Below, in pieces: positions 6,941 to 25,724 of a DNA stretch of 64,000 bases (position 1 is the first letter of the stretch; the number at the start of each line of letters is the position of its first letter). This DNA comes from Anaeromyxobacter dehalogenans 2CP-1 (GTDB lineage: Bacteria; Myxococcota; Myxococcia; Myxococcales; Anaeromyxobacteraceae), in NCBI RefSeq assembly GCF_000022145.1, contig NC_011891.1, positions 868,001 to 932,000 of the forward strand. The letters run 5' to 3'. The notes under the pieces were generated by a model. That model was not told the DNA's origin, ran no database searches, and was given only the letters and a program-made list of their open reading frames with translations. The translations under genes were made by a program, and so were the position numbers.

Positions 6941-9604
6941 GTGGACGGAGCGCCGTCCGGTTTCTGGGGAAAGCTGCGACGTCCGCCGGGCGGACCGGTG
7001 GAGCGCTGGCATCCGCTCGTCGCGCACTGCGCCGATGTCGCGGCTTGCCTCGAGGCGCTTCTCGCCGATGACGTCATTCGCTCGAGGCTGGCGCGCCTCG
7101 CCGGCCTTGGCGACCTCACGCCGCCCCAGCGGGCGCGGCTCTGCGTCCTCGGTGCGCTCCACGACGCCGGCAAGTTCAACCACGGCTTCCAGCGGAAGGG
7201 AGATCCGGCTCCGTCCGACGTGGCGGGGCACGTGGGCGAGCTGTTCGCGCTGCTCGCAGCGCCCGGTCCGGAGCGCTCCGCGCTCGCCGAGGCGCTCTCG
7301 CTTCGCGAGATCGACGGCTGGGGTGCCTCCCGGCTGCTCGTGGCCGCCCTCGCGCACCACGGCGCCCCGGAGAACGTGCGCAGCCCGAGCCGGCCGCCCC
7401 GTGCTGCCCTGTGGCGTCCGGCCGACGGTCGGGACCCGATCGGTGGCATCGCCTGCCTGGCGGACGCCGCACGATCGTGGTTCCCGGCGTGGCGCGAGCC
7501 GGCCGACCCGTTTCTCGACCGACCGGCGTTCCAGCACGCATTCAGCGGGCTCGTCACTCTCGCCGACTGGGTCGGCTCGGACGAAGCGTCCTTCCCGTAC
7601 GCCTCGACGAAGGACGGCCGCATGTCCTTCGCGCGGGAGCGCGCGCCCGAGGGGCTCCGGCGCCTGTGGATCGACCCGAGCGCGGCCAGGACGGCGCTGG
7701 GAGGGCGTGCGCCGGCCTTCACCCGCCTCTTCGATGTGCCGAGCCCCCGTCCAGCGCAGCAGGCCGTTCTCGACCTGCCGGTGGCCCCGGAGGGCGGGCT
7801 CACCGTGCTGGAGGCCGAGACAGGGTCCGGAAAGACGGAAGCAGCCGTGGCGCGCTTCGCCCGTCTCTTCGCCGACGGGCTGGTGAACGGAATGTACTTC
7901 GCGCTCCCGACCCGCACCTCTGCCACGCAGATCCACCGGCGCCTGGTGGACGCGATGCGGCGCTGCTTCCCCGACGAGAACTCGCGCCCGCCGGTGGTGC
8001 TGGCCGTGCCCGGCTATCTGCGAGTCGACGACGCAGAAGGCAAGCGCGACCCGCGACTGCCACCGTTCTCGGTCTCGTGGCCCGACGACGAGCAGGAGCG
8101 CATGCGCTGGCGCGGATGGGCGGTCGAGCACGGCAAGCGATACCTAGCGGGCACCGTGGTCGTCGGCACCATCGACCAGGTCCTCCTCTCCGCGCTCCCG
8201 CTGAAGCACGCGCACCTGCGCGCCGCGTCGCTCCTGCGCCACCTCCTCGTGGTGGACGAGGTGCACGCCTCGGACGCGTACATGAACCGCTTGCTCGCGA
8301 CGGTGCTGGATCGCCACCTCGCCGCCGGCGGGCACGCGCTCCTCATGTCGGCGACGCTGGGCGCCGCCGCGCGCGAGCGGTTCACCCGGGCGCGCGACGA
8401 CGCGACCCCACCGCCGCTCTCTACGTGCGCGGAGATGCGCTACCCCGGCATCACCTGTCGGAGCGCCGGGTCGCGGGTTGCGGATTCCAGGCCTCGGCCC
8501 GCGGGCGCAGCAGGCAACCCGAAGCCGATCACCGTCGAGTCGGTGGCGATCCTCGAGGATCCGTCCGCCGTGGCGCGGCGGGCGCTCGACGCTGCACGCG
8601 CGGGCGCCCGGGTGCTGGTGATCCGCAACACGGTGAACGGCGCGCTCGCCGTGCAGCGAGCGCTCGAGGTGCTCGCGGCGCCGGCAGACGGCGCACGCCT
8701 CTTCACGTGCGAAGGGCAGGCCGCACCGCACCACTCGAGGTACGCAGGCCCGGATCGCGAGCGGCTGGATCGGGCCATCGAGTCCGCGCTTGGGAAGGGA
8801 ACGGACCCGGGCGGCCACGTGGTCGTCGCGACGCAGACCGTCCAGCAGAGCTTGGACCTCGACGCGGACTTTCTCCTTACGGATCTCTGCCCGGCCGACG
8901 TGCTGCTGCAGCGCGCCGGGCGCCTGCATCGGCACGCGGATCGCGTTCGTCCGGCCGGGTTCGAGCGCGCGCGCGTCATGCTGCTGGTGCCCAGCACGCC
9001 GGACCTCGGCAGGTACATCGACGGCCGCGGCGCGGCCCGCGGACCCCACGGCATCGGCACCGTCTACCGCGATCTCCGGATCCTCGAAGCGACTTGGGCG
9101 TTCATCCGCCACCGCCCGGAGATCGACATCCCAGCGATGAACAGGGCCTTCGTCGAGGCGGCCACCCACCCCGAGGCGCTCGCAGGAGTGGTCGCCCGCG
9201 GGGCGGGCCGGTGGGGCCTGCACGCTCGCGCGGTCACCGGCGCGCTCCTCGGAGAGCAGGTGCTTGCGGCGACAAACGCCTTCGACTGGGACCGACCGTT
9301 CGGCGACGCCGGGTTCCCCACCGGCTTCGACGCGGTGGTGAAGACCCGGCTCGGCGCTGGCGATCGGATCGCCAGGTTCGAGCCGGCGGTCCCGTCGCCC
9401 TTCGCCGGGAGCGTCGAATTCTTGAGCATCCCCGCATGGTTTGCGCAGGGTGCGGGATCGGAAGAGGTGCCGCGAAGCGTGAACGTGTCTGGCCGCTTCG
9501 TACGGTTCCAGTTCGGAGCACGACGCTTCGTCTACGACCGGCTCGGCCTTCGTCCTGAGGACGCCAGCGGACCACCGCACGAGGAGGATGCTGCAGATGC
9601 CTAG
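6941..9604 (+). CDS. cas3: Type I-E CRISPR nuclease-helicase Cas3
   Basis: Protein of 887 aa with fused HD nuclease and SF2 helicase. HD residues: HPLVAHCADVA near 26-36, LHDAGKFNHG near 74, GHVGELFALL near 95 and AHHG near 139. Helicase: ETGSGKTEAA near 290, DEVH near 438, MSATLG near 468, QTVQQSLDLDAD near 632 and QRAGRLHRH near 657. After Cascade binds a target, Cas3 unwinds and degrades the displaced DNA strand. The GTG start is supported by GGGAGGTGAGG just upstream. First gene of the cas operon; its 3' end overlaps cse1. No disabling change is visible, so interference looks intact. Confidence 0.96.
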   Translation: MDGAPSGFWGKLRRPPGGPVERWHPLVAHCADVAACLEALLADDVIRSRLARLAGLGDLTPPQRARLCVLGALHDAGKFNHGFQRKGDPAPSDVAGHVGELFALLAAPGPERSALAEALSLREIDGWGASRLLVAALAHHGAPENVRSPSRPPRAALWRPADGRDPIGGIACLADAARSWFPAWREPADPFLDRPAFQHAFSGLVTLADWVGSDEASFPYASTKDGRMSFARERAPEGLRRLWIDPSAARTALGGRAPAFTRLFDVPSPRPAQQAVLDLPVAPEGGLTVLEAETGSGKTEAAVARFARLFADGLVNGMYFALPTRTSATQIHRRLVDAMRRCFPDENSRPPVVLAVPGYLRVDDAEGKRDPRLPPFSVSWPDDEQERMRWRGWAVEHGKRYLAGTVVVGTIDQVLLSALPLKHAHLRAASLLRHLLVVDEVHASDAYMNRLLATVLDRHLAAGGHALLMSATLGAAARERFTRARDDATPPPLSTCAEMRYPGITCRSAGSRVADSRPRPAGAAGNPKPITVESVAILEDPSAVARRALDAARAGARVLVIRNTVNGALAVQRALEVLAAPADGARLFTCEGQAAPHHSRYAGPDRERLDRAIESALGKGTDPGGHVVVATQTVQQSLDLDADFLLTDLCPADVLLQRAGRLHRHADRVRPAGFERARVMLLVPSTPDLGRYIDGRGAARGPHGIGTVYRDLRILEATWAFIRHRPEIDIPAMNRAFVEAATHPEALAGVVARGAGRWGLHARAVTGALLGEQVLAATNAFDWDRPFGDAGFPTGFDAVVKTRLGAGDRIARFEPAVPSPFAGSVEFLSIPAWFAQGAGSEEVPRSVNVSGRFVRFQFGARRFVYDRLGLRPEDASGPPHEEDAADA

Positions 9605-11216
9605 TCGGAAGAGCGCGGGGACCGTCAAAGCGGGGAAGCGAGCTTCGCTGAAGAAGGCGCCGGTCGAGCGGAAGCCGCCGGCGACGCCTGCGCACGACCT
9701 GCTCGCCGATCCTTTGCTCGGCGTTGCGCTGCAGGGAGGCGCGCGAGAGTGGCTCGACCTTCCCGGTGTGCTGGAGGCGCTCGGGAAGGATGAGATCGAG
9801 GGCTTCTCGGCGCTCCAGGCGCATCAGCAGCACGCCTGGCACGCGTTCCTGGTCCAGCTCGCAGCGATCGCGCTCCATCGCGCAGAAGAGCGTTCGCCCA
9901 GGCTCAAGGCCGCCCGGTGGCGAGAGCTGCTCGCGGCGCTCACCAAGGGGCGCCACGAGCCGTGGACGCTGGTCGTGCCAGATCTGCCCCGTCCCGCCTT
10001 CCTGCAGCCGCCGGTGCTCGATGGGACGCTCGATGGCTTCAAGGCGCGGCTCGCTCGTTCCGACGAGCTCGACCTGCTCGTCACCTCGAAGAACCATGAT
10101 GTGAAGGCGGCGAGGGCTGCGAATGCTCGTCCGGAGCACTGGGTGTATGCGCTCGTGTCGCTCCAGACGATGCAGGGGTTCTCCGGTAGGTCGAACTACG
10201 GAATCGCGCGGATGAACGGCGGGGCCGGCAGCAGGCCGGGACTGGGCCTGGCGCCGGGCCACGCGCTCGGCGCGCGGTTCCGTCGCGACACCGCGGCTGC
10301 GCTCGAAGCCCGCGATGCGATCCGTGGGCCCCGTGGATACAAGGCGCGCGGCGGCATCGCGCTCCTGTGGCTCGAGCCCTGGGACGGGAAGTCGGCGCTC
10401 ACGCCCGGCGACCTGGATCCACTGTTCATCGAGATCTGCCGCCGCGTCCGGCTCGACCTCGTCGACGGGATGATCGGCGCACACACCGTCGGGAGCGCAA
10501 ATGCGCGGATCGACGCTGGCGATCTCAGGGGCAACACGGGCGATCCGTGGACGCCGGTCCAGAAGGCGGAGAGCAAGCCCTACACGGCAACGGAGGCCGG
10601 GTTCTCGTACCGCGTGCTGCACCGGCTCCTAGGCGACGACTACCAGCCGGGAGTTGCGCAGGTCCCCCGCCGGGGCGACAGCGAGGTCGAGATTGTCGCG
10701 ACCGTGCTGGCGCGAGGCATGGGCAAGACGGCGGGCTTCCACGAGCGGCGGGTTCCGGTTCCCGGTGACCTCTTGCCCTGGCTCGCGGACGCTGGACGGC
10801 GCGCGCTCCTCGGCGCCTTTGCCGGCCAGCGCGTCCAGCTCGCGGCTGACGTGCAGCGGCACGTGCTGAAGCCTGCCGTGCTGGCGTACCTGCAGGGCGC
10901 GCCCGACGAGCTCAACTTCAAGGATCGCCGCGCCGGCGCGTGGCTCGAGGCTCACGACGCCGAGGTCGATCGGATCTTCTTCGAGCGCCTCTGGGCGGAC
11001 CTCTCGCGCGACGCGGAGCGCGCCCTCGCGGAGTGGGCGAGGACGGTGCTGGACCTGGCCCGCGCCCAGCTCCAGTCCGCTTTCGAGGACGCGCCCGTTC
11101 CCATCGCGCGTCGCTACCGCGCCATCGCGGCCGCCGAGCGGGTCTTCGAGGGCGCGGCGCGGAAGCACGTGAAGCTCGCATTCGACCCGGAGAAGGAGCA
11201 ACGACATGAAGCCTGA
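9597..11216 (+). CDS. casA: Cascade large subunit Cse1/CasA (Cas8e)
   Basis: Protein of about 539 aa. In type I-E systems this subunit recognises the PAM and recruits Cas3. LLADPLLGVALQ, DLLVTSKNHDVK and YKARGGIALLW are spaced as in Cse1 proteins, and an alpha-helical C-terminus forms the four-helix bundle. Two ATGs compete: 9588, which directly abuts AGGAGG, and 9597, with a 9-nt spacing; 9597 is preferred. Either way it overlaps the end of cas3, implying translational coupling. The N-terminus is Lys/Arg-rich for about 25 residues before the family domain. Confidence 0.93.
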   Translation: MPSRKSAGTVKAGKRASLKKAPVERKPPATPAHDLLADPLLGVALQGGAREWLDLPGVLEALGKDEIEGFSALQAHQQHAWHAFLVQLAAIALHRAEERSPRLKAARWRELLAALTKGRHEPWTLVVPDLPRPAFLQPPVLDGTLDGFKARLARSDELDLLVTSKNHDVKAARAANARPEHWVYALVSLQTMQGFSGRSNYGIARMNGGAGSRPGLGLAPGHALGARFRRDTAAALEARDAIRGPRGYKARGGIALLWLEPWDGKSALTPGDLDPLFIEICRRVRLDLVDGMIGAHTVGSANARIDAGDLRGNTGDPWTPVQKAESKPYTATEAGFSYRVLHRLLGDDYQPGVAQVPRRGDSEVEIVATVLARGMGKTAGFHERRVPVPGDLLPWLADAGRRALLGAFAGQRVQLAADVQRHVLKPAVLAYLQGAPDELNFKDRRAGAWLEAHDAEVDRIFFERLWADLSRDAERALAEWARTVLDLARAQLQSAFEDAPVPIARRYRAIAAAERVFEGAARKHVKLAFDPEKEQRHEA

Positions 11217-11742
11217 GGAGCACTCGACCCTTCAGCGCTCCGACGAGCGGTCGCTCTCGAGCCGCGTGAACGCGTTGGCCCGGGCGATCGCGTCCGGCTC
11301 GCCCGGAGACGTGGCGGCGCTGCGGCGCCTCACCCCGGACGATCCGGCCTCGCCGGCTTTCTGGCGCCTGGCGGCGGCGCACCTCGACGGCGCGCTCCCC
11401 GCGGGAGGCGGCGAAGCGCGAGAAGAGGCCGAGCGGAGCTGGGCCGCGGTCATGAGCGGCATGGCGCTGACGGCGGGCCTGCACGTGCCACGTCGCCGGG
11501 CCGGGGCCGCGCTGGCGCAGGCTGGGTACTCCGAGCTCCGCTTCGAACGGCTGCTGCGCGCATCGGGGCCGCAGCTCTTCCGCGAGGTCAGGGCCGCCGC
11601 GGCGTTCCTCGCCTCCAAGGCGGTGGAGTTCGACTGGACCGATCTCGCCGCGCTCGTGCTCGGCGACGGTGGCCCTTCCGCAGAGCGAACCCGCCGCGCG
11701 CTCGCGCGCAGCTTCTATCAGCAGCTCCCCACGCAGGACTGA
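11206..11742 (+). CDS. casB: Cascade small subunit Cse2/CasB (Cas11)
   Basis: Protein of 178 aa, all-helical and basic, the usual size for Cse2. Two copies line the belly of Cascade and stabilise the crRNA-target duplex. DPASPAFWRLAAAHLD near residues 48-63 and LRFERLLRASGPQLF near 107-121 match the family pattern. AAGGAG precedes the ATG, which overlaps the end of cse1 by 11 nt. Cas7 begins 12 nt after its stop. Confidence 0.92.
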   Translation: MKPEEHSTLQRSDERSLSSRVNALARAIASGSPGDVAALRRLTPDDPASPAFWRLAAAHLDGALPAGGGEAREEAERSWAAVMSGMALTAGLHVPRRRAGAALAQAGYSELRFERLLRASGPQLFREVRAAAAFLASKAVEFDWTDLAALVLGDGGPSAERTRRALARSFYQQLPTQD

Positions 11743-11754
11743 CCGAGGACACTC

Positions 11755-12996
11755 ATGAGCCGATTCGTTCAGATTCACACGCTGACCTCGTACCCTGCCT
11801 CGCTCCTGAACCGCGACGATGCGGGGTTCGCGAAGCGCATCCCGTTCGGTGGCGTCACGCGGACCCGGATCTCGTCCCAGTGCCTGAAGCGCCACTGGCG
11901 CACGTTCGAGGGGGAGGAGGCGCTGTCCGGCCTGGGGCAGCCGATGTCGGTCCGCTCGCGCTACACGTTCGAGGAGTTCGTGGTGCAGCCGCTGGTGGAC
12001 GAGGGTGTCCCCGCAGCGCTCGCGCGCGAGGTCACCCGGGCGCTCATGAACGAGGTGCTCGGGAAGAGCGCCAAGGCGGCGAAGGAGGACGCCAAGAACG
12101 GTGAGGAGAAGGAGGCGCAGAAGGACGCCGAGCCCGACCCGTCGCTGCAGACCGGGCAGATCACCGTGCTCGGTCGGCCGGAGGTGGCCTACATGCTCGA
12201 CGTCGCTCGCGCGATTTGCAGCAAGAAGCCCGACGCCGCCAAGATCGCAAAGGCAGTCGCGGACCACCTCGGGGCGTCGGGGCGCGGCAACCTCCGAGAG
12301 CTGCGCCTCGGCGCCGGCCTCGATGCGGCCATGTTCGGACGGATGGTGACGAGCGACATCCTCGCGCGGGGGGACGCCGCCTTGCACGTCGCCCACGCGT
12401 TCACCGTCCACGCGGAGGCGACCGAGACCGACTACTTCTCCGCCGTCGATGACCTGCCGATGGCGCGGGCCGAGAACGGTCAGGGCAGCGGCCACATCGG
12501 CAACGCCGAGCTCACCTCGGGCCTATTCTACGGCTACGTCGTCATCGACGTGCCGCTGCTCGTCTCGAACCTCGAAGGCGTGGACCGCAAGGCGTGGGAG
12601 AAGGCGGACCGCGGGCTCGCGGGGCAGGTCGTCGAACGCATGGTCAGGCTGATCGCGACGGTCTCGCCGGGGGCGAAGCTCGGCTCCACCGCGCCACACG
12701 CGTATGCGCACCTGGTGCTCGCCGAGGCCGGCAACGCCCAGCCCAGGACGCTCGCGAACGCGTTCCTGAACCCGATCACGACCAGTCCGCGTCAGCCGGA
12801 CCCGGTCGCGGCAGCGTACCGCGCTCTCGCGCAGCACGCCGCGGACCTCGATCGCATGTACGGCCCGGCGTTCCAGCGCCGGCTCGCGGCGATCGGACCG
12901 GCGGATGGCCTGGCTGACGCGCTGCGTGCCACGGCGAGCGCGAGCCTCGCCGAGGTGGCGGGGTGGGCCGCCGACCAGGTGCGAGGCGGGCGATGA
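11755..12996 (+). CDS. casC: Cascade backbone subunit Cas7e (Cse4/CasC)
   Basis: Protein of 413 aa, longer than the roughly 360 aa of E. coli CasC. The N-terminus FVQIHTLTSYPASLLNRDDAG and RISSQCLKRHWR are diagnostic of the type I-E backbone protein that polymerises along the crRNA spacer. The extra length is partly a Lys/Glu/Ala-rich segment around residues 100-125 (KSAKAAKEDAKNGEEKEAQK), which I infer to be an exposed loop. The C-terminal third keeps LGSTAPHAYAHL and the ANAF motif. The start overlaps nothing; its stop overlaps the cas5 start as ATGA. Confidence 0.95.
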   Translation: MSRFVQIHTLTSYPASLLNRDDAGFAKRIPFGGVTRTRISSQCLKRHWRTFEGEEALSGLGQPMSVRSRYTFEEFVVQPLVDEGVPAALAREVTRALMNEVLGKSAKAAKEDAKNGEEKEAQKDAEPDPSLQTGQITVLGRPEVAYMLDVARAICSKKPDAAKIAKAVADHLGASGRGNLRELRLGAGLDAAMFGRMVTSDILARGDAALHVAHAFTVHAEATETDYFSAVDDLPMARAENGQGSGHIGNAELTSGLFYGYVVIDVPLLVSNLEGVDRKAWEKADRGLAGQVVERMVRLIATVSPGAKLGSTAPHAYAHLVLAEAGNAQPRTLANAFLNPITTSPRQPDPVAAAYRALAQHAADLDRMYGPAFQRRLAAIGPADGLADALRATASASLAEVAGWAADQVRGGR

Positions 12997-13733
12997 TCGA
13001 AACGCTCATCCTCCGCTTCGACGCGCCCCTGCTCGCCTTCGGCGGCGTCGCGGTGGACAACCAGGGCGTGGTCCAGGACTTCCCCGGCCTCTCCATGGTC
13101 GCAGGCCTGTTGGGGAACGCGCTGGGCTTCGACCACCGCGAGTTCGATCGGCTCGAAGCGCTGCAGCGCAGGCTGCGCGTGGCCGCGCGGCGCGACCGGA
13201 AGGGCCAGCGGCTGGTGGACTTCCAGACGGTCGCGCTCGGCCAGGCGTTCCTGGAGCAGGGCTGGACCACCCGTGGCGTGATCGAGGGGCGCGATGGCGC
13301 CTTCTCCGATGCGACGCACATCCGCTACCGCGCGTACTGGGCGGATGCCGTGTACACGCTCGCCATGACGCTCGAACCCGCCGCCGAAACGCCCGATCTC
13401 GACGCAGTAGAGCGCGCGCTGCGCGAGCCGGAGCGGCCGCTGTTCCTGGGGCGCAAGGCGTGCCTGCCGTCCGTGCCCATCCTCGCAGGGCGCCGTCGGT
13501 GTCCGGCGCTCCTTGCCGCGCTCGCAGGCTTCGAGCGGATCCCGCGGGAGCGATGGGAGGGCGGCGAGCCGGCGCCGCTCGCGGCCTGGATGCCGGGGAG
13601 CGAGGCCGCCGAGCCGCTGGTGCGGGAGTTCCCCGTCACCGACGAGCGAGACTGGGCCAACCAGCTCGTGGTGGGGCGTCGCATCGTCCGGCAGACGTCG
13701 ATCATGCCCCCGGAGGCATCCAATGTCCGCTGA
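12993..13733 (+). CDS. casD: Cascade subunit Cas5e (CasD)
   Basis: Protein of 246 aa. Cas5e caps the 5' handle of the crRNA. The start ATG at 12993 is chosen because it forms the ATGA overlap with cas7 and gives IETLILRFDAPLLAFGG, the conserved first RAMP strand. AGLLGNALGFDH near residues 31-42 is the typical Gly-rich helix start of Cas5. GREFP-like and QTSIMPPEASNV sequences close the domain. The GTG at 12963 would add ten non-conserved residues and is rejected. Its last 11 nt overlap cas6e. Confidence 0.93.
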   Translation: MIETLILRFDAPLLAFGGVAVDNQGVVQDFPGLSMVAGLLGNALGFDHREFDRLEALQRRLRVAARRDRKGQRLVDFQTVALGQAFLEQGWTTRGVIEGRDGAFSDATHIRYRAYWADAVYTLAMTLEPAAETPDLDAVERALREPERPLFLGRKACLPSVPILAGRRRCPALLAALAGFERIPRERWEGGEPAPLAAWMPGSEAAEPLVREFPVTDERDWANQLVVGRRIVRQTSIMPPEASNVR

Positions 13734-14454
13734 CCTTCGCATGCTGCGCATGCGCTTCGACGCCGGTCGTCTGTACGAGCTCGGCCGTCGCAGGCGGCTG
13801 CCGCCTCGAACCGACCTCGGCTACCTGCTCCACTGCGAGCTGCGCGAGCTGTTCGGGGCCGATTCGCCGGCACCGTTCGCGGTTCGCGACGCCGCCGGCC
13901 GTGGGGTGACGGTGCTCGGCTACTCGAGCCGCCCGGCCGCGGCGCTCCAGCGCCACGCCCAGCAGTACGCGGACCCCGACGTGTACGCCGTCTGCGACTG
14001 GACCTCGCTCGACGAGAAACCGTTGCCGCAGCGGTGGGCGGCGGGCGAGCGGCTCGGGTTCGAGGTGCGCGCGTGTCCGGTGGTGCGGATGTCGAGCGAC
14101 GGGCCGCGCTGGCGCGCGGGCGCGGAGGTCGATGCATACCTCGCCCGCTGCTGGCGAGCGGAGGGGCCGGTCGACCGCGAGGCCGTGTACCGCGAGTGGC
14201 TGCTGGAGGAGCTCCGGCGCCGCGGCGGCGCGCGGCTCATCTCCGCGCGCGTGATGGGTCACCAGCGCGGGCACGTCGTCCGGCGGGATCACCGGCCGGA
14301 GCGCAAGGCCGTCGGCGGCGAGCGGCCGGAGGCGGTGTTCTCGGGCGAGCTCGAGGTGGCGGACCCGGCGGCGTTCGGCGCGCTGCTCGCGCGGGGGGTG
14401 GGCCGGCATCGGGGGTTCGGCTTCGGGATGCTGCTGCTTCGGCCGCCGGGGTGA
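13723..14454 (+). CDS. casE: crRNA-processing endoribonuclease Cas6e (CasE)
   Basis: Protein of 243 aa with two ferredoxin-like folds. It cuts pre-crRNA 3' of the repeat hairpin and stays bound to it. The C-terminal Gly-rich loop GVGRHRGFGFGMLLL is the classic RAMP motif. DEKPLPQRWAAGERLGFEVR is a conserved central segment. His37 in YLLHCEL is a plausible catalytic His by analogy to His26 of the Thermus enzyme. The ATG at 13723 is preceded by GGAGG and matches the family start MxxLRMRFDA; in-frame codons further upstream lie within cas5 and are not used. With the repeats here, cleavage would leave an 8-nt 5' handle AUCGACCC. Confidence 0.93.
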   Translation: MSADLRMLRMRFDAGRLYELGRRRRLPPRTDLGYLLHCELRELFGADSPAPFAVRDAAGRGVTVLGYSSRPAAALQRHAQQYADPDVYAVCDWTSLDEKPLPQRWAAGERLGFEVRACPVVRMSSDGPRWRAGAEVDAYLARCWRAEGPVDREAVYREWLLEELRRRGGARLISARVMGHQRGHVVRRDHRPERKAVGGERPEAVFSGELEVADPAAFGALLARGVGRHRGFGFGMLLLRPPG

Positions 14455-14458
14455 CCGG

Positions 14459-15343
14459 GTGCTGAAGGGCAGGCTCGGCCTCGAGACGGCGCGGATCCCG
14501 CAAGGCGACCGCCACGGCCTGCTCTGGCTGTCGCGCGGCAGCCTGTACGTCGAGGATGGGACGCTCCGCTTCCGCACCGCCGGCTGGGCCGAGCTCCCAG
14601 CCGGCGACTATGCCATACCGTTTCAGATGGTCACCGCCGTGCTCCTCGAGCCGGGGACCACCGTCAGCCACGACGCGCTCAGGCTGCTCGCGCGCCACGG
14701 GACGGGCCTCGTCGCCATCGGCGAGGAGGGCACGCGCTTCTACGCGAGCATGCCGTTCGGCCCGGACGCCTCGGCGCTCGCCCGCCGGCAGGTGATGGCG
14801 TGGGCGAGCGCCGCGGACGGTCGGTTGCGCGTCGCGCGTCGCATGTACGCCTGGCGCTTCGGCGAGGTTCTGCCCGACGAGGACATCACCGTCCTACGCG
14901 GTATCGAGGGTGCCCGGATGCGCGAGATCTACCGGCGCCTCGCAGAGCAGTACGGCGTTCCATGGTCCGGTCGGCGCTACGACCGGCAGCGCCCGGACCA
15001 GAACGATCCCGTGAACCAGGCGATCAACCACGCCGCGAGCGCGGTCGAGGCCGCGGCGCTCGTGGCCGTCGCCGTGACGGGGACGATCCCCCAACTCGGC
15101 TTCATCCACGAGGACTCGGGGAACGCGTTCGCCCTCGACGTCGCCGACCTGTTTCGCTCGGCGATAGCCCTCCCGGCCGCCTTCTCGGCCGTGCGGGAGT
15201 GTGCCAAGGATCCCCGCAAGCCACTCGAGCGCACGGCAAGGCGCGCCGCGGGTCGTCTCCTGCAGCAGAAGGACGTCATCCCCGAGATGATCGACCGCAT
15301 CAAGGAGATGTTCGATGCCGATGACGGTCATCGTGACCCGTGA
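14459..15343 (+). CDS. cas1: Spacer integrase Cas1 (type I-E)
   Basis: Protein of 294 aa, close to the E. coli length. With Cas2 it captures and inserts new spacers at the leader end. LGLETARIPQGDRHGLLWLSRG is the I-E N-terminal beta domain. Conserved active-site candidates are Glu in GARMREIYRRLAEQYG, His near 217 in GFIHEDSG and Asp in ALDVADLFR near 226-230. The GTG at 14459 lies 4 nt after the cas6e stop. It overlaps cas2 by 29 nt. No loss of key residues is seen, so adaptation should be possible. Confidence 0.95.
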   Translation: MLKGRLGLETARIPQGDRHGLLWLSRGSLYVEDGTLRFRTAGWAELPAGDYAIPFQMVTAVLLEPGTTVSHDALRLLARHGTGLVAIGEEGTRFYASMPFGPDASALARRQVMAWASAADGRLRVARRMYAWRFGEVLPDEDITVLRGIEGARMREIYRRLAEQYGVPWSGRRYDRQRPDQNDPVNQAINHAASAVEAAALVAVAVTGTIPQLGFIHEDSGNAFALDVADLFRSAIALPAAFSAVRECAKDPRKPLERTARRAAGRLLQQKDVIPEMIDRIKEMFDADDGHRDP

Positions 15344-15644
15344 CGTTCCGGATCGTTTTCGAGGCTTCCTCGCGTCGGTCGCGCTGGAGATCGCGCCCGG
15401 CGTCTATACGGCGCCGGACATGACTGCATCGGTGCGAGAGCGCGCGTGGACCGTTCTTGAGGACTGGCACCAGCATGCGCGCCAGGGCGCCGTCGTGATG
15501 ACTTGGCCCGACGGCGCGGCGCCAGGCGGGCAGCGCGTGCTCGTTCTAGGGGACGCGCCGAGGGAGTTGTGGGTTGCAGACGGCCTGGTTCTGGCGCGCC
15601 GCGACGTTCCGACCGACTCCGGTGCGCCGTCGATCGCTCCGTGA
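15315..15644 (+). CDS. cas2: Cas2 (type I-E)
   Basis: Protein of 109 aa of the E. coli (CasYgbF) type: TVIVTRDVPDRFRGFLASVALEIAPGVY aligns with the family start and VRERAWTVLEDW with its helix. Cas2 dimers bridge two Cas1 dimers and act structurally. AAGGAG lies 7 nt before the ATG at 15315; a second ATG two codons later is possible. The last gene of the operon, it ends 64 nt before the first repeat. Confidence 0.94.
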   Translation: MPMTVIVTRDVPDRFRGFLASVALEIAPGVYTAPDMTASVRERAWTVLEDWHQHARQGAVVMTWPDGAAPGGQRVLVLGDAPRELWVADGLVLARRDVPTDSGAPSIAP

Positions 15645-15708
15645 CAACTGAATAGGCGACCCAGGCTCGCAGGGAGCGGGCCTGGCTGCTATACCCAACT
15701 GTGTAAGA
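15645..15708 (+). promoter_or_regulatory. CRISPR leader
   Basis: The 64-nt segment between the cas2 stop and the first repeat is the leader, since repeats are perfect here and decay at the far end. It holds an inverted repeat CCAGGC (15661-15666)/GCCTGG (15680-15685) and a short AT-richer stretch GCTATACCCAACTGTGTAAGA next to the array, which could include a -10-like TATACC. No clear IHF consensus (WATCAANNNNTTR) is seen, unlike in E. coli. Confidence 0.75.
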
Positions 15709-18638
15709 GGCTTCCCCGCGTGCGCGGGGATCGACCCCTGGACCGCGACATGCGCGAGGGGCTCGAGCGGGCTTCCCCGCGTGCGCGGGGATCGACCCCA
15801 TGCCGAGTGCCGCTCGCCGGAGCGCCGGTCGGCTTCCCCGCGTGCGCGGGGATCGACCTCCGGGTTTGGGGGCTAAGTGAGGCCGGGCCTTGGCTTCCCC
15901 GCGTGCGCGGGGATCGACCCCCGTACCAGGCCCTGGTGGAGCCGCTCGACGTGGCTTCCCCGCGTGCGCGGGGATCGACCCGGGCGGGCCGGGCCGACAA
16001 AGGATGACGAGGCGGCTTCCCCGCGTGCGCGGGGATCGACCCCCTCGGCCCCACGCGGATCGCTGCTGGTGCGGGGCTTCCCCGCGTGCGCGGGGATCGA
16101 CCCCTCAGGATTGCCAGGAAGCGTGCCGGACTAAGGGCTTCCCCGCGTGCGCGGGGATCGACCCGAGCGAATCACGGGGTGGCGCCCGGCACGACGGGCT
16201 TCCCCGCGTGCGCGGGGATCGACCCCCAGCCGACGTGCCGGGGATGCCGAACATTCCGGCTTCCCCGCGTGCGCGGGGATCGACCCCGCCCGGTCGCCGT
16301 GGTAGACGCGGATGAGGAGGCTTCCCCGCGTGCGCGGGGATCGACCCGGTCGTCGGTTCGCACGCCGCTCTCCATGTCGGGCTTCCCCGCGTGCGCGGGG
16401 ATCGACCCTCTGCAACGTCCAGCCCGCTGCCGCCGGGGCTGGCTTCCCCGCGTGCGCGGGGATCGACCCTTCACGGGCGGGATCGACGTGACCGGGGACA
16501 TGGCTTCCCCGCGTGCGCGGGGATCGACCCGTCGGCGAGCCGCCGCCGCCGGTGAACGCTCCGGCTTCCCCGCGTGCGCGGGGATCGACCGCGGAGCGCG
16601 CGGAGGCGGCCGAGCCGGCCCTGGGCTTCCCCGCGTGCGCGGGGATCGACCCGGGACCGAGTCGCGCGCCAAGTCCGTTGTCATGGCTTCCCCGCGTGCG
16701 CGGGGATCGACCTGCGGCCGCAAAACTGACAGGGCGCGGCGGTCAGGCTTCCCCGCGTGCGCGGGGATCGACCCGTGATCGCGCCGGTCGGGAAGAAGCG
16801 CCCGACGGCTTCCCCGCGTGCGCGGGGATCGACCCCCGGCCTCGTCCACGATCGCGAGGTCGGTCCCGGCTTCCCCGCGTGCGCGGGGATCGACCCTGGC
16901 AGATCGATAACGCCCGCTCCGCCGACTGGGCTTCCCCGCGTGCGCGGGGATCGACCCGGAAGATCGCGGCGACCGCGTAACAGAGAGAGGGCTTCCCCGC
17001 GTGCGCGGGGATCGACCCTCCTTCGCCAGCTCGGTGAGGTCGGCGCCGGCGGCTTCCCCGCGTGCGCGGGGATCGACCCGCGTACCTGGGCGTGCTCGGG
17101 CGGCTCTACTCGGCTTCCCCGCGTGCGCGGGGATCGACCCGGTGGACGGATCATCACTGATGGGGCGGGCGGGGCTTCCCCGCGTGCGCGGGGATCGACC
17201 CGCTCGCCTTGTTCGGGAACCGCAGGTCGAGCCGGCTTCCCCGCGTGCGCGGGGATCGACCCCGGAATCAGCTTCCGGGAGTCCTCGTGCTTCCGGCTTC
17301 CCCGCGTGCGCGGGGATCGACCCGCGGAGAGGCCGCCCTCTACGACCTGCAGGGCGGCTTCCCCGCGTGCGCGGGGATCGACCCTTGGGCGGCCCGCGCG
17401 CGCACCGACTCGTCCAGGCTTCCCCGCGTGCGCGGGGATCGACCCCGGAGCGCGACCCGGGCCTCGCTCGGCTGGTAGGCTTCCCCGCGTGCGCGGGGAT
17501 CGACCCGAGGAGCCGCTCGGCGCGGAAGGCGACAGAGCGGCTTCCCCGCGTGCGCGGGGATCGACCCGCTCGGTAGAGCGCAGAGGCCTGCTTCGCGCTG
17601 GCTTCCCCGCGTGCGCGGGGATCGACCCCCGTCCGCCACCGGCAAGGTCGTCCTGAGCGGGGCTTCCCCGCGTGCGCGGGGATCGACCCAGCGCCGGGGT
17701 TTTCAAGCGGCCACCCCCTGCGGCTTCCCCGCGTGCGCGGGGATCGACCCGCCGTCTGGAACGGGAGGTACGGGATCGCCGTGGCTTCCCCGCGTGCGCG
17801 GGGATCGACCCGGGCAGAGCCACGGCACCTTGCGCAGCCCGCCGGCTTCCCCGCGTGCGCGGGGATCGACCCGCCTGGAACGTCTCGGCCGGCTCGACGT
17901 GGAAGGCTTCCCCGCGTGCGCGGGGATCGACCCTGAACTGGGGTCCCGAGCAGAAGCACGGGGTCGGCTTCCCCGCGTGCGCGGGGATCGACCCTCCCAG
18001 ACGATCTGGCGCATCGCGGTGGCACCGGCTTCCCCGCGTGCGCGGGGATCGACCCGGCCCGTACACGTCCGGCCCGGCCAGCGCCGCGGCTTCCCCGCGT
18101 GCGCGGGGATCGACCCGGTGAGCCCGGCCGCGAGTATCACCGTGGGCGGGCTTCCCCGCGTGCGCGGGGATCGACCCGGCGTCTTCCCGCACCCCGGCAT
18201 GCCCCACACGGCTTCCCCGCGTGCGCGGGGATCGACCCTTCGACTCCGCCACCGGCTGGACGCTGAACGCGGCTTCCCCGCGTGCGCGGGGATCGACCCG
18301 GGAACCAGGCCACCAGCCCGGGTGGCACGGTGGCTTCCCCGCGTGCGCGGGGATCGACCCGATCCGTGGCGTGCTTCGGGCGCTGCGCCGGGGGCTTCCC
18401 CGCGTGCGCGGGGATCGACCCCCCGGAAAGGTTCCAACCATGTCCGATTGCGGGGCTTCCCCGCGTGCGCGGGGATCGACCCCGTCGCTTCATCCCCACC
18501 GACCGCCAGGCGCTGGCTTCCCCGCGTGCGCGGGGATCGACCCGCGCGTCAGCCGTAGGAACGTCCGCAGTGACCGGCTTCCCCGCGTGCGCGGGGATCG
18601 ACCCCGGGTCCTCCACGTCGATCTTCGTGGCCGCGAGG
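15709..18638 (+). CRISPR. Type I-E CRISPR array, leader-proximal segment (48 repeats)
   Basis: 48 repeats start at 15709 and recur every 61 nt to 18576-18604, with 47 intervening spacers and an intact 48th spacer at 18605-18636. The first two bases (GG) of a 49th repeat follow, where the IS begins. The repeat is 29 nt: GGCTT, the hairpin core CCCCGCGTGCGCGGGG, then ATCGACCC. All spacers are 32 nt. The first 28 positions are invariant; position 29 is C except T at 15859 and 16713 and G at 16591. Orientation follows from the E. coli-like 3' end of the repeat and the cas2-side leader. Two of its spacers (17568-17599, 17629-17660) recur in the distal segment. Confidence 0.98.
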
Positions 18639-18692
18639 TGTCAAACGACAGGAGGAATTGACCCCCAAACGACAGAACTTCTGACCCCCTCC
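18639..18692 (+). repeat. IS21 terminal repeat, istB-side end
   Basis: The end contains two related blocks: TGTCAAACGACAGG with TTGACCCCC, then CAAACGACAG with TGACCCCC. This is the multiple-terminal-repeat arrangement typical of IS21 ends bound by IstA. It matches the reverse complement of 20691-20742 over most positions. Confidence 0.85.
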
Positions 18693-18702
18693 GCCTCGGG
18701 GT

Positions 18703-19395
18703 TCAGTTCGCCTTCTCGGCCCTGCCGAGCAGGCCCGCCTTGCGCTTCTGCTTCAGCCTGTAGCTCTCGCCCTGGATCATCAGCGTGAAGCTGTGGTGCA
18801 GGAGCCGGTCGAGGATCGCGGCGGCGATGAGCTGGAAGAACAGGTGCGCACTGCGCTTCTCGAACGGCAGGTACCCCAGCTCGTCCACGACGAGCAGCTT
18901 GGGCTTCGCGTAGAACGCGAGCCGCTCCGCGAGCTGGCCCTCGGTCTCGGCCTTCGAGAGCGCGCCCAGCAACGCCGTCGCGCTCGTGAAGAGCACGGTG
19001 TAGCCGGCTTCGACTGCGGCGCGCCCGAGCCCGATGGCGAGGTGCGTCTTGCCGACGCCGGGCGGGCCGAACACGAGCACGTTCTCCGCGTTCGCGACGT
19101 ACCGGCTGACGGCGAGCTCGCGGACGAGCTTCTGGTCGACGCTCGGCTGGAACTTGAAGTCGAAGTCGTCGAGGGTCTTCACCGCGGGGAAGTGCGCGAT
19201 CTGGATGCCCATCGCGACGCGCTTCCGCTGCTTCGCCCCGACCTCCTCGCGCAGGATCGTGTCGAGGAAGTCGAGGTACGTCGGCTCGCCCCGTGCCGCG
19301 GTCGAGAGCAACGCGTCGAGCTGCTCGCCGATGCGCCCGAGGCGGAGCCGGCCGAGGCTCTCGAGGACGCGAGCCCGCGTGATCTCGGTGCTCAC
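18703..19395 (-). CDS. istB: IS21 transposition helper ATPase IstB
   Basis: Protein of 230 aa, a normal IstB length, in the AAA+/DnaC-like ATPase family. Walker A GPPGVGKTHLAIGL and Walker B LLVVDELGYLPF are intact, followed by the sensor region FFQLIAAAILDR. IstB assembles on target DNA and directs IstA. The GTG start overlaps the istA stop by 4 nt (GTGA). No damage is visible, in contrast to istA. Confidence 0.95.
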   Translation of the reverse strand: MSTEITRARVLESLGRLRLGRIGEQLDALLSTAARGEPTYLDFLDTILREEVGAKQRKRVAMGIQIAHFPAVKTLDDFDFKFQPSVDQKLVRELAVSRYVANAENVLVFGPPGVGKTHLAIGLGRAAVEAGYTVLFTSATALLGALSKAETEGQLAERLAFYAKPKLLVVDELGYLPFEKRSAHLFFQLIAAAILDRLLHHSFTLMIQGESYRLKQKRKAGLLGRAEKAN

Positions 19396-20668
19396 GCGGC
19401 ACCGCCGATCACGGCCGCGTAGTCGTCGAGCGTCCGTCCGAGCGCGGCGAGCGGCTGCGCGATGGGAACGAGGTTCTCAGCCGCAGGCCGGCGCCAGAGG
19501 CCGTCGAGGTGGGCCGGGTCGATCACCCGCGCGTGCGGCTCGAACGAGCGCGCGTGAACCGCTACGACGTCGCGGCCGTGGAAGATGCGAACCTCGTCGG
19601 CGGTGACGAGCGCCTCGACGCGGTCGCGCACGAGGCGGTGCGGAACGCTGTAGCGGACCGTGTCGATGTCGATGAGCGAGTCGTTCGCGACGCGCCGCTT
19701 CAGGCGACGGCCGTGCGTCGGGAGCGGCCGCGCGGGCAGCGACCTCAGTGCCTCGCGCTCGTCGCGCTCGAAGCGTTTCGCAGGGGCCTCGTGCGTCGTC
19801 CCGTGCACGCGGCCGTCCACGAGGAGCTGCCACGCGGATAGGTGGTCCTGCAGGTGCGCGAACGAGTTTAACCGCCGACCGGCGATCGCGTTTCGCTTCA
19901 CGTACTTCACGCCGGACTCGGTCTTACCCTGGGTTCTGGCGCGGTATGGCTGGCAGGCGCGCGGCTGAACATCCCAGTCGCGGCAGAACGCGACATACGC
20001 CGGGTGGAAGATCACGGTCTGCGCCTCTCGGTTGCGGCCGGCGACGAGGCAGCGCGTGTTGTCGCCGAGAACCTCGAGCGGCACGCCGCCGAAGTGGCGG
20101 AACGCCGACGCGATCCCGTCGAGCCACTCGCCCTGACGCTCGTGCAGGAACGCCTTCACGAAGATCCGCCGCGAGTAGCTCAACACCGCGGCCAGGAAGT
20201 GCACCGTCACGCGCTCGTCGGCGATCCAGACCTGGCGCTCGCCGAAGTCGATCTGCATCTGCCGGCCCGGCGCGGTCTCGAACCGGACCGTCGCACCGTC
20301 GGCGGCGCGCTGCTCGCGCCGGGGTCCGCCACGGCACGCTGCACGGTCCTCACGCTCGCCTCAACGCCGCGCTCACCGAGCATCTGCGCGCCGACCACGG
20401 CGTTGCCCTCGGCCTCGCCCTCAAATAGCGCGACTGCTGCTGCTCGCCGGACGTCGGCGAGCCGCTGCTGTGAAGGGTGCCGTTGGAGATCGGCCACCGC
20501 GCCGCGCAGGTACCGACGCACCGTGTTGCGAGCCACGCCGAGTTCGCGCGCGATCCGCTTCGCGCCCCAGCCCTTACCCGCGAGGTCACGCATCTGCCTG
20601 ACCGCCTCCGCCTCGACCATCGGCACCTCCGTCGTCGGGGGTGCCACGAATCCCATCTCGCTGCCCAT
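19392..20668 (-). pseudogene. istA: IS21 transposase IstA, one frameshift
   Basis: The N-terminal part (from 20668) carries the HTH GWGAKRIARELGVARNTVRRYL and runs to RTVQRAVA. Near 20321 the frame shifts by -1, apparently through loss of one base. The second part holds the whole DDE catalytic core: Asp in MQIDFGE, Asp in VLGDNTR and Glu in GKTESGVKYVKRN, then an integrase C-terminal domain ending at the istB overlap. Combined length would be about 425 aa, typical for IstA. A product would need programmed -1 frameshifting at the GAC CCC GGC region; otherwise the copy is dead. Confidence 0.88.
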
Positions 20669-20690
20669 CTCCGCCTCCTTGCTGAGGGCA

Positions 20691-20742
20691 GAGGGGGTCA
20701 GAAGTTGTGTCGCAAGGGGGTCAGTTATCCTGTCGCTCTACA
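20691..20742 (-). repeat. IS21 terminal repeat, istA-side end
   Basis: Reverse-complemented, this end begins TGTAGAGCGACAGG, then ACTGACCCCC and a second block ending ACTTCTGACCCCCTC. It is the partner of the 18639-18692 end and has the same two-block layout. The same first block, TGTCGAGCGACACG, opens the degenerate element at 24528. Confidence 0.85.
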
Positions 20743-20745
20743 CGA

Positions 20746-23700
20746 GGCTTCCCCGCGTGCGCGGGGATCGACCCTTGTACGGGCCGTCGATGTCCGTCCC
20801 CAACGTGGCTTCCCCGCGTGCGCGGGGATCGACCCCTCCCGGTGATGAGCGTCGCGGCGCGGAACAGGGCTTCCCCGCGTGCGCGGGGATCGACCCGGAT
20901 CGCCGAAGTTCCAGGCGGTGATCCGTAGGGCTTCCCCGCGTGCGCGGGGATCGACCGCGGGTGCCGGGCCGCGAGAACGCCCTGCACGTGGCTTCCCCGC
21001 GTGCGCGGGGATCGACCCGGAAGGAGAGAGAGATGGCGACGGATCGTGAAGGCTTCCCCGCGTGCGCGGGGATCGACCCCGCTTCCGGATCGAGCACACG
21101 CTTCGCCGCCTGGCTTCCCCGCGTGCGCGGGGATCGACCCCGCGAGTCCGGCAGCATCCTCGGCATCTACCGGGCTTCCCCGCGTGCGCGGGGATCGACC
21201 CTGCGGGGCGGCCACCTCGATCGCAACGTCTGGGGCTTCCCCGCGTGCGCGGGGATCGACCCTCGCTCGACCTCGACGGCGTGGTCACGCTGAAGGCTTC
21301 CCCGCGTGCGCGGGGATCGACCCCCCGGGCTCTTCGGCATGTCGCCGATCTGGGGGGCTTCCCCGCGTGCGCGGGGATCGACCCTTGGCATCAGCAGTCG
21401 GTGGACATCGACGCTGGGCTTCCCCGCGTGCGCGGGGATCGACCCTGGCGTCCGAGGCGCTTCGTCCCACCGGCCCGGGCTTCCCCGCGTGCGCGGGGAT
21501 CGACCGGAGAGGGAGACCTTCACGGCGGCGCCGCGCCGGGCTTCCCCGCGTGCGCGGGGATCGACCCGCGCAGGAAGGCCAGCGGTGGGCGCAGGCGAAG
21601 GCTTCCCCGCGTGCGCGGGGATCGACCCCGGTGGACGAGCCGCCGGTCGCGGGTCCAGAGGGCTTCCCCGCGTGCGCGGGGATCGACCCGGGCTCGAGGA
21701 CCTCGAGCAGCTCGCGCGAGAGGCTTCCCCGCGTGCGCGGGGATCGACCCGCGGGCAGGTAGGCCCACCCGCACTCGGCGCCGGCTTCCCCGCGTGCGCG
21801 GGGATCGACCCAAGCGGGTTCGGAACACACGGTCAGCGCTGATGGCTTCCCCGCGTGCGCGGGGATCGACCCGAAGAGGCGCTCTCTCCCGCGCAGGCGC
21901 GCGAGGCTTCCCCGCGTGCGCGGGGATCGACCCGTCGCCCACGAGAAGCGCCAGGAGGAGCTCAAGGCTTCCCCGCGTGCGCGGGGATCGACCGTTGTCC
22001 GCAGCCGGTCTGCTCCGCTACGTCGGGGCTTCCCCGCGTGCGCGGGGATCGACCCGATCTGGAGGGCCACGCGATCACGATCCGGCTGGCTTCCCCGCGT
22101 GCGCGGGGATCGACCCTCCTCCCGGTCGCCAGCGAACAGGTACGGACCGGCTTCCCCGCGTGCGCGGGGATCGACCCGAGTAGACGCGCGATGCGGTGGA
22201 GCGGCAGCGGGCTTCCCCGCGTGCGCGGGGATCGACCCGTGTCGATGATGGAGGCCCGGCGAACGCTGGGGGCTTCCCCGCGTGCGCGGGGATCGACCCA
22301 CCTACTCCGTGATCAAGGCGCTGTTCCGCGAGGCTTCCCCGCGTGCGCGGGGATCGACCCTCGTCGGGGCTCCGGCCGGCCGGCAGCGGGCGGGCTTCCC
22401 CGCGTGCGCGGGGATCGACCCGCTCGGTAGAGCGCAGAGGCCTGCTTCGCGCTGGCTTCCCCGCGTGCGCGGGGATCGACCCGGCGCACGTCCCCCACCA
22501 CCACCGAGAAGGAGGGCTTCCCCGCGTGCGCGGGGATCGACCCGAAGGCGCATCCCGCGATCTCGGTCGTCAGAGGGCTTCCCCGCGTGCGCGGGGATCG
22601 ACCCGTGCACACCACCGCGGCGGCCGCCCACGCGCCGGCTTCCCCGCGTGCGCGGGGATCGACCCCGTGGAGGCCACCGTCGCCGCCGTCACGTCCCGGC
22701 TTCCCCGCGTGCGCGGGGATCGACCCCGCGCCGAGCCCGGGTCATTCCCCGACCACTGGGCTTCCCCGCGTGCGCGGGGATCGACCCGGGGTGAACCTGC
22801 TCACCGCGATGACGCACATGGCTTCCCCGCGTGCGCGGGGATCGACCCTCCGCGGAGCCAGGGCCCTGGACGACGCTGCCGGCTTCCCCGCGTGCGCGGG
22901 GATCGACCCGGGTCCCACATCCGGAAGGCGCTGTCCGACGCGGCTTCCCCGCGTGCGCGGGGATCGACCCCCGTCGAGCAGGTTGCGGAGGTCGGCGGTC
23001 GTGGCTTCCCCGCGTGCGCGGGGATCGACCCCGCCTCGACCACACCAGGCCGAAGACGCCGGCGGCTTCCCCGCGTGCGCGGGGATCGACCCGTCGTGGA
23101 CGGGCGTGACCGGGAGCGGATACCGGCTTCCCCGCGTGCGCGGGGATCGACCCGGCCGGGCCGGGTCCTCCGCGCCGAAGTAGGCGGCTTCCCCGCGTGC
23201 GCGGGGATCGACCCAGCAGCCCGCGGCCGCCCGTCGCGAGGTGGTGGGCTTCCCCGCGTGCGCGGGGATCGACCCTGGCGCAGGTAGGACGGCAGCGTGG
23301 CGCTCGGGGCTTCCCCGCGTGCGCGGGGATCGACCCTCGACAAGGCGCTGCTCGCGATCTTCGCCGAGGGCTTCCCCGCGTGCGCGGGGATCGACCCAGC
23401 GCGCCTCCACCCGGCGGCGTCCACCGGGGGGCTTCCCCGCGTGCGCGGGGATCGACCCGGCGTGGACCCGAGCCGGCGCGGCTTCCTGTCGGCTTCCCCG
23501 CGTGCGCGGGGATCGGCCCGAGTACGAGGACGCCAACCTCGTCGCAGCCAAGGCTTCCCCGCGTGCGCGGGGATCGACCCCCGTCCGCCACCGGCAAGGT
23601 CGTCCTGAGCGGGGCTTCCCCGCGTGCGCGGGGATCGACCCTTCCTGACGGCGACGCTGGACGTCGTGGACGAGGCTTCCCCGCGTGCGCGGGGATCGAC

Positions 23701-24527
23701 CCTCAGCGTCTCGCCGACGACGCCCGCCGCGTCGGGCTTCCCCGCGTGCGCGGGGATCGACCGTCGGCCGTGAAGCGCTTCCGCTCGCCCTGGCGGGCTT
23801 CCCCGCGTGCGCGGGGATCGACCCTTGTACGGGCCGTCGATGTCCGTCCCCAACGAGGCTTCCCCGCGTGCGCGGGGATCGACCCTCCTCGTGGCGTTCG
23901 GCCCGGACCCGGACGGTGGCTTCCCCGCGTGCGCGGGGATCGACCCCCGAGGTCAATCGTCTCGTCGCTGAACATCTTGGCTTCCCCGCGTGCGCGGGGA
24001 TCGACCCATCAGCGCCACGTTCGCGAGGACCTGGACGGCGGCTTCCCCGCGTGCGCGGGGATCGACCCATGCGCGAGAGGAGCGAGCCGCGGATGAGCGT
24101 GGCTTCCCCGCGTGCGCGGGGATCGACCCGAGGTCCAGCGTGTCCTGGGCCGGCGCGGAACGGATTCCCCGCGTGCGCGGGGATCGGCCCTTCTTCGCCC
24201 CGGTGGTCGAGCACGGCTTCACGGCTTCCCCGCGTGCGCGGGGATCGACCCGGGAGGACGTTCATCAGCACGACCCGGAGCCCGGCTTCCCCGCGTGCGC
24301 GGGGATCGACCGTGGCGCGCGACGCCGGCGCTCGCGCGCGCGTTGGCTTCCCCGCGTGCGCGGGGATCGACCCACGCGCGACTTGCCGGTGCCCGGCCGG
24401 CCGCAGGCTTCCCCGCGTGCGCGGGGACCCGGCGCGACGGCGCTCATCGTCGACGCGGACGTGGCTTCCCCGCGTGCGCGGGGATCGACCCCGCCCCACG
24501 TCGAGCCGTTAGCCGGTCCAGCCGGCT
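20746..24527 (+). CRISPR. Type I-E CRISPR array, leader-distal segment (62 repeats)
   Basis: 62 repeats start at 20746 and run on the 61-nt period to 24463-24491. The last spacer is 24492-24523 and a truncated repeat (GGCT, 24524-24527) abuts the second IS. Variants cluster toward the end: A26 to G at 23491 and 24162 (the latter also C3 to A), and a 4-nt loss making the 24406 repeat 25 nt long. Position 29 is G at five sites (repeats at 20929, 21478, 21966, 23735, 24284). Three spacers are duplicates: 22422-22453 equals 17568-17599, 23581-23612 equals 17629-17660, and 20775-20806 equals 23825-23856 except the last base. Together with the first segment there are 110 repeats and 107 distinct spacers. 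Confidence 0.98.
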
Positions 24528-25327
24528 TGTCGAGCGACACGTAAACTGACCCCCTGCGAGAGCTCGCGGCGAAGGGCTGGGGAGCGATGCGCATCGCCCG
24601 CGATCTGGGACTGGCCCGCAAGACGGTCAGGCGTTACCTGCGAGGCGGCCCTGCCGCCGACGTCCAGGAGCGGCCGACGGCGCGTCGCCTCGACGACTCT
24701 GCTCGGGAGGAGGCGCTGGCGCTCTTCGACGGCGAGGCCGACCGCAACGCGGTCGTCGTGGCCGACATGCTCGCGCAACGAGGCGTAGATGCGAGCATCC
24801 GGACGGTGCAGCGGGCGTTGGCGCGGCGGACCTCGCCACGGTGCGGTTCGAGACCGCGCCGGGTCGGCAGATGCAGATGTACCTCGGCGAGCGCAAGGTC
24901 TGGTCGCCGGCGCGCAGGTCACGGGTGCACTTCCTCGTCGCACTGCTGAGCTACTCGCGGCGGATGTTCGTGAAGGCGTTCCTGCACGAGCGCAGGGCGA
25001 GTGGCTAGACGGGATCCCGTCGCCGTTCCAGCACTTCGGGGGCGTGCCCGCCGAGGTCCTGGCGACAACGCTCGGTGCCTCGGGGCGCGACCGCGACCGC
25101 GCCGCGCAGACGGTGACCTTCCACCCGACCTACGTCGCGTTCTTGCGCGACTGGGACGTCCAGCCTCGGGCCTGTCGGCCGTATCGGGCCCGCACCAAGG
25201 GCAAGACCGAGTCCAGCGTGAAGTTCGTGAAGCGCAATGCCATCGCCGGTCGACGGTTCGACTCGACGGCGCATCTCGAGGCGCACCGCGCGCTCGTATG
25301 GGGGGCAGAGCTTCCTGTCGTTTGACA
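24528..25327 (+). mobile_element. Decayed IS21-family element (800 bp, internally deleted)
   Basis: It begins TGTCGAGCGACACG followed by ACTGACCCCC and ends CCTGTCGTTTGACA, matching the two ends of the element at 18639-20742, but in the opposite orientation. It retains only a broken istA; the istA 3' part and all of istB are missing. No exact target duplication is seen: GGCT precedes it and GGTCT follows. Both flanks are the 5' edge of a CRISPR repeat, so it too entered the array. Confidence 0.88.
24555..25325 (+). pseudogene. istA: IstA remnant: frameshifted, truncated, catalytic Asp residues lost
   Basis: The start region is deleted; homology begins LRELAAKGWGAMRIARDLGLARKTVRRYL just inside the left end. 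A -1 shift near 24825 falls in the same linker as in the first copy, after RTVQRALA. A further one-base loss lies near 24995 (HERRASG versus HERQGEW). The catalytic Asp positions are changed: QMYLGE instead of QIDFGE and VLATTLGA instead of VLGDNTR; the Glu in GKTESSVKF remains. Translation ends in the right terminal repeat. It is certainly non-functional. Confidence 0.88.
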
Positions 25328-25417
25328 GGTCTCCCCGTCTGCGGCGGGGAGTCCCGCTGTTGTCGTCCTTTTGCAGCTCATTGCGCGGGGCTTCGACGTG
25401 TGCGCGTGAACCGGACG
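25328..25417 (+). CRISPR. Two degenerate terminal CRISPR repeats, in register
   Basis: Immediately after the decayed IS, 25328-25356 reads GGTCTCCCCG...CGGGGAG, keeping the hairpin with changed stem bases. Exactly 61 nt later, 25389-25417 begins GGCTTCGACGTGTGCGCGTG and matches the consensus at 20 of 29 positions. The 32-nt interval 25357-25388 has spacer length. The exact period argues that these are the old trailer end of the array, not chance. Confidence 0.72.
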
Positions 25418-25664
25418 CGACGTGTACCGACCGAGTAGGAGGCCAACGGCAGATGCGTGCGTGCGCGCCTGTAACGTCGCTCTCCCGCTCGCCCTTGACG
25501 ACGAGCCGCAACCAGCGGCCGGCCCCAGCCCACCGCAACGGCGACGCCGGTCCCTTCTCCCAGTCCCGCAGCGCCAGAGCAACCCCCCGCGCCCTCGCCC
25601 TGCTGCCCACCAGCATGCCGGCGACCAGACAGCCCAACCGGGCCACATCTGCAGCGCTCGACCT

Positions 25665-25691
25665 TGTCACACCGCGCGCTCCCCGCTCGTC
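25665..25691 (+). promoter_or_regulatory. ECF41-type promoter for the CMD-sigma operon
   Basis: TGTCACA at 25665-25671 and CGTC at 25688-25691 are separated by 16 bp, the published ECF41 consensus. It lies 34 nt before the ATG of the decarboxylase-like gene, whose neighbour encodes an ECF41-like sigma factor. Autoregulation is therefore likely. Confidence 0.7.
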
Positions 25692-25724
25692 TTGCCGGTA
25701 AATCGACGGAACGGGAGACGACAC

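Follow-up and report, generated by a model that had tools for sequence, protein, structure and literature searches.

The locus lies in a 64,000-nt stretch of Anaeromyxobacter dehalogenans 2CP-1 (contig NC_011891.1, positions 868,001 to 932,000; hereafter the window, with all positions counted from its first base). A cas operon is followed by a CRISPR array that is interrupted by two insertion sequences (ISs) (Table 1). The products of cse1, cse2, cas7e, cas5e, cas1, and cas2 exceed the curated NCBIfam cut-offs, cas6e is slightly under its cut-off (40.7 vs. 45.2), and cas3 exceeds the helicase and HD domain cut-offs and falls under that of the whole-protein model. With this cas gene set, palindromic repeats of ∼29 nt, 32-nt spacers, and a 61-nt period, the array is a type I-E CRISPR.

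Table 1. Features of the cas operon, the array, and the array end, by position in the window
Positions	Strand	Feature	Basis
6941..15644	+	Type I-E cas operon: cas3, cas8e (cse1), cse2, cas7e, cas5e, cas6e, cas1, cas2 side by side	NCBIfam
15709..18604	+	Leader-side array block, 48 repeats	
18639..20742	.	First IS (IS21 family), inserted after the second base of a repeat; its genes run on the - strand and the istA frame is broken	
20746..24491	+	Second array block, 62 repeats	
24492..24523	+	Spacer of 32 nt, after the last intact repeat and before the split one	position, length
24524..24527	+	5' stub GGCT of the split repeat, at 24463 + 61	
24528..25327	.	Second IS (800 nt, IS21 family), internally deleted but with both ends	
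25328..25357	+	Probable 3' remainder of the interrupted repeat, 30 nt and decayed; carries a 1-nt insertion and retains the hairpin	
25358..25388	+	Last and presumably oldest spacer, 31 nt	
25389..25417	+	Terminal decayed repeat, 20/29 sites, hairpin lost	
25448..25644	.	Trailer flank homologous to the G001 flank beyond its array end (C182:127-307)	

The array has 110 recognizable repeats (at least 22 of 29 sites matching the 29-nt consensus, GGCTTCCCCGCGTGCGCGGGGATCGACCC) with 32-nt spacers, and 107 of the 109 gaps between them keep the 61-nt period. Its start adjoins cas2, so we took position 24491 and beyond as the trailer side. An exact-word scan of the window terminates the array at 24491, the point at which the initial annotation had thought that annotation software would probably halt. 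Three of the last six recognizable repeats deviate from the consensus: 24162, with two changes; 24284; and 24406, where a clean 4-nt internal deletion (TCGA; repeat 24406–24430) produces the only 57-nt step of the array. There are four changes in the first 54 repeats and seven in the next 54, in addition to the 24406 deletion. Because changes are only slightly commoner in the second half, and because repeat 24463, just before the split repeat, is perfect, decay along the array is not gradual.

The first IS, which carries IstB, integrase core (rve), and Mu-type C-terminal domains, is flanked by a 5-bp target duplication (CGAGG) made up of the last three spacer bases and the first two repeat bases. 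It is 2104 nt long, compared with 2192 nt in each of three other copies in the genome, and those copies have an open 448-codon frame where its istA is broken. The second IS is related to it: nucleotides 28–760 are 76% identical to nucleotides 151–902 of the first IS, and its termini match both ends of the first IS (85% over the first 32 nt and 82% over the last 34 nt), so that it has terminal inverted repeats in common with this more complete element. No in-order match to about nucleotides 903–2070 of the first IS was found in the second, leaving neither istA nor istB complete. Judged by this alignment, the second IS is a decayed IS21-family derivative and not a working element.

The initial annotation had placed this decayed IS inside the array, and its surroundings agree: the IS is preceded by a 32-nt spacer and an in-register GGCT and followed by repeat sequence in the same register. 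The decayed repeat at 25328 opens with GG at the first base past the IS end and is therefore best read as the same repeat as the stub at 24524–24527. When the flanks are joined with a 4-base target duplication, they form one repeat starting GGCTTCCCCG with 61-nt steps on both sides; with a 5-base duplication, one of the steps would become 60. For the second IS, no target duplication can be recognized (GGCT vs. GGTC, or CGGCT vs. GGTCT, with three of five bases alike), whereas an exact one of 5 bases flanks each of the four copies of the related first IS.

Beyond the second IS, the initial annotation had described two decayed repeats one exact period apart, the first with a changed hairpin and the second matching the consensus at 20 of 29 sites. 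All of these particulars were reproduced. Positions 25328 and 25389 are separated by 61 nt, and the 29-mers starting there match the consensus at 17 and 20 of 29 sites, respectively, without gaps; the match at 25328 improves when a 1-nt insertion is allowed. With gaps allowed, 25328 scores 12 against the consensus and 25389 scores 13; these are the top two of the 330 start positions from 25328 to 25657. The hairpin at 25328 is retained and is longer than that of the consensus (-20.1 vs. -15.5 kcal/mol; z -3.2), and at 25389 it has been lost (-6.8 kcal/mol, with 150 of 200 shuffles folding equally well). Both are genuine in-register units; only 25389, though, is a further repeat, since 25328 is best read as part of the split one.

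We conclude that positions 25328–25417 are very probably the leader-distal end of the type I-E array, in which an IS21-family element has inserted into the second-last repeat, followed by the remainder of that repeat, a spacer, and the last repeat. New units would enter at the leader (the 15709 side), so that the units at the end would be the oldest and would collect mutations. An IS21-family element would then have inserted four bases into the second-last repeat and later lost its interior, leaving the remainder of the split repeat at 25328, the 31-nt spacer, and the last repeat at 25389. With no hairpin in the last repeat for Cas6e to cut, and with the IS separating them from the leader, the end units are probably inert, presumably neither transcribed nor functional. 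The simple reading is an original array of 112 repeats and 111 spacers, the 110 recognized repeats plus the two at the end. The hairpin at 25328 counts against simple decay at that unit, as a fold stronger than that of the consensus is not something decay would favor.

The second IS could also have deleted or recombined away array units, in which case 24524 and 25328 would derive from different repeats and the original array would have been longer. The unrecognizable target duplication and the divergence of 25328 from the consensus, far greater than that of repeat 24463, are in keeping with such a loss. We nevertheless regard it as unlikely, given that the two pieces meet in the phase of a single insertion (a 4-base duplication with 61-nt steps), which by our own estimate a random deletion would produce about 1 time in 20 (3 of 61 phases).

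We then turned to the same chromosomal site in related genomes. Identity of the downstream flank is 90% in G001 (from 25657) and 91% in G002 (from 25714), both of the same genus as the window genome; the remaining 57 relatives of the 59 searched have weak matches or none. In G001, the upstream flank on contig C291 (homologous up to 6936) leads into a different type I-E operon at the site that corresponds to 6848–25656 of the window. All seven of the proteins tested from this operon match Cas3 or type I-E models, with 29%–43% identity to the window Cas proteins where alignable; cas8e and cse2 were not found in this comparison by tblastn at an E-value of 0.001. Contig C291 stops inside an array with another repeat, CCGTTCCCCGCGCACGCGGGGATGAACCG, and contig C182 opens with two decayed CCGTTCCCCGCGCACGCGGGGATGAACCG copies 61 nt apart (C182:24 and C182:85, scoring 23 and 21 out of 29 against their own consensus), followed by the downstream flank. 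The two contigs presumably carry the two ends of one G001 array, with the assembly breaking between them.

Beyond both tails, the flanks are homologous. The stretch from 25448 to 25644 aligns to C182:127–307 with 130 of 172 aligned bases identical and 34 gapped positions (score 45; none of 1000 shuffles scored as high, the largest reaching 40). The window and G001 arrays therefore stop at one and the same trailer, and the ancestral end of the window array accordingly falls at about 25417–25447. A further in-register repeat at 25450 was considered and rejected, with a score of -1 against the consensus repeats of both the window and G001. The earlier proposal that the two units mark the ancestral trailer end is thereby borne out: significant in-register similarity, a leader-distal position, and chromosomal flank beyond, which are among the marks of a degenerate trailer-end repeat, are present. 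The decayed tails themselves (window 25357–25447 vs. C182:1–126) have no detectable homology, with 465 of 1000 shuffles aligning as well.

The presence of another I-E system at this site in G001 raises the alternative that the end units are left over from an older and different I-E array, for instance a G001-like one, on top of which the present array was grafted. We compared both units with 35 consensus repeats. Several other I-E repeats fit 25328 as well as the window's own, which ranks third in a tie with others, one point under the best in register, and the repeats of loci L107 and L115 fit it better at a one-base shift (15 and 14 vs. 12). At 25389, however, the window's own repeat is the best fit of the 35 (13, with the next at 10) and the G001 repeat scores 0, and both units are in phase with the present array. 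A graft onto an older array is accordingly very improbable.

Still less credible is the suggestion that 25328–25357 is some other functional hairpin (an array-end terminator, for example) that is merely repeat-like. Its fold is strong; on the other hand, there is no T run directly after it (TTTT occurs about 17 nt on), it starts exactly at the IS end and in repeat phase, and it has no close copy in the genome (six other places, with three mismatches each).

Chance matches in GC-rich DNA can be set aside: single 20/29 matches turn up at 10 of about 106,500 positions, but the pair sits at the predicted place and its score is reached by none of the background pairs or shuffles. The background was taken from both strands of the window minus 15601–26300 (106,520 positions), of which 16 reach a score of 12 and four a score of 13. 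The pair sum of 25 is reached by none of the 106,398 background pairs 61 nt apart (largest sum, 20), nor in any of 2,000 dinucleotide shuffles of 25328–25447, in any phase. The significance of the register, for which the initial annotation had proposed a check, is thus upheld.

To place the decayed tail in context, we looked for such repeats in related I-E arrays found through Cas1. From 69 non-window array rows, 40 were chosen by hand, excluding rows reaching the locus end, opposite-sense rows, short internal fragments, and loci L067 and L132; four with fewer than 250 bases after the array were dropped, and 36 were counted. All arrays were read in the repeat's own sense, with three of the 36 (the second array of L087, L108, and L114) lying upstream of Cas1. 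The scan proceeded in at most five steps of 58–64 nt, with the same steps used for the control. Extra repeats past the exact-word end were found in eight of the 36 arrays, of which L087 has only well-kept ones and the other seven have a decayed one (scores 11–22) about one period past the last well-kept repeat. The remaining 28 have no hidden repeat past the exact-word end, a count that includes L128, where masked bases follow. Off-register controls reached the threshold of 10 in five of 252 tests. With seven of 36 arrays ending in this way, hidden decayed end repeats are not rare.

These observations agree with what has been described elsewhere. In a study of Escherichia and Salmonella (PMC2886076), the terminal repeat nearly always has a degenerated 3' end, other repeats deviate little, and the authors allow for irregular spacing through transposase insertion. 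The last repeat of the window array likewise departs from its consensus; in contrast to those arrays, decay here extends to the second-last unit, and in the final unit both the 3' end and the hairpin are gone. According to the CRISPRDetect paper (PMC4869251), the leader-distal end is where mutations, insertions, and deletions accumulate, and software often detects such ends wrongly. Repeat decay in the window is similar, except that here the last units are cut off from the remainder of the array by an 800-nt IS. For Xanthomonas citri pv. citri, PMC6889575 describes IS21-family (ISRso19-like) insertions in arrays, one in a repeat and another in a spacer, which serve to tell strains apart. The window element is also an IS21-family insertion in a repeat, but it is internally deleted and its target duplication is unrecognizable. 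The decayed tail is therefore real but ordinary, a further case of known things, as both decayed tails and IS21 insertions in arrays have already been published. It does correct the array end, adding two more spacers, one split repeat, and one further repeat, and a simple scan is halted here by the decayed IS and not by the end of the array.

The more interesting by-product is that closely related genomes carry different I-E systems, two in all, at this one site, next to a trailer flank that they share. The immediate flanks shared by the window genome and G001 extend up to 6936 and resume from 25448, and each genome has a decayed array tail there, from which we infer an exchange of operons at this site. 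Whole type I-E cas-plus-array cassettes of different descent might replace one another here, with the tail and trailer serving as the anchor or remaining as the scar of the exchange, a suggestion we offer only tentatively. The site in G001 and the window genome is a clean place to study cas cassette exchange. In G002, only 156 nt separate the places that match 6847 and 25714, so there are no cas genes between them. Homology of this gap to the window-genome or G001 flanks was sought and rejected (218, 306, and 283 of 1000 shuffles scored as well). We do not claim a relic repeat in the cas-less gap, where the window repeat scores 11 and, on the other strand, the G001 repeat scores 12; in the control, which was for the window repeat, 72 of 1328 random 160-nt stretches reach at least 11.

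We also searched for the repeat and spacers elsewhere. The window repeat was found in none of the 59 relatives besides its own genome (up to three mismatches) and in none of 146 other genomes of the class (up to two mismatches), and 26 of its bases had no exact match in genome_contigs, where records of this or near genomes are possibly absent. No exact match in viral contigs was found for the spacer before the split repeat (pattern 24493–24524, one base to the right) or for 31 bases of one duplicated spacer. Matches of the 111 spacers elsewhere in the window and in the two ISs were at most 18 nt long, except for one of 29 nt with four mismatches, and no target is claimed. Finally, we noted pairs of the same spacer far apart in the array (17568/22422, 17629/23581, and 20775/23825, with 32, 32, and 31 of 32 bases identical). 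These are not a block copy, because two adjacent spacers recur 19 units apart, and may reflect either one protospacer having been acquired more than once or recombination inside the array.
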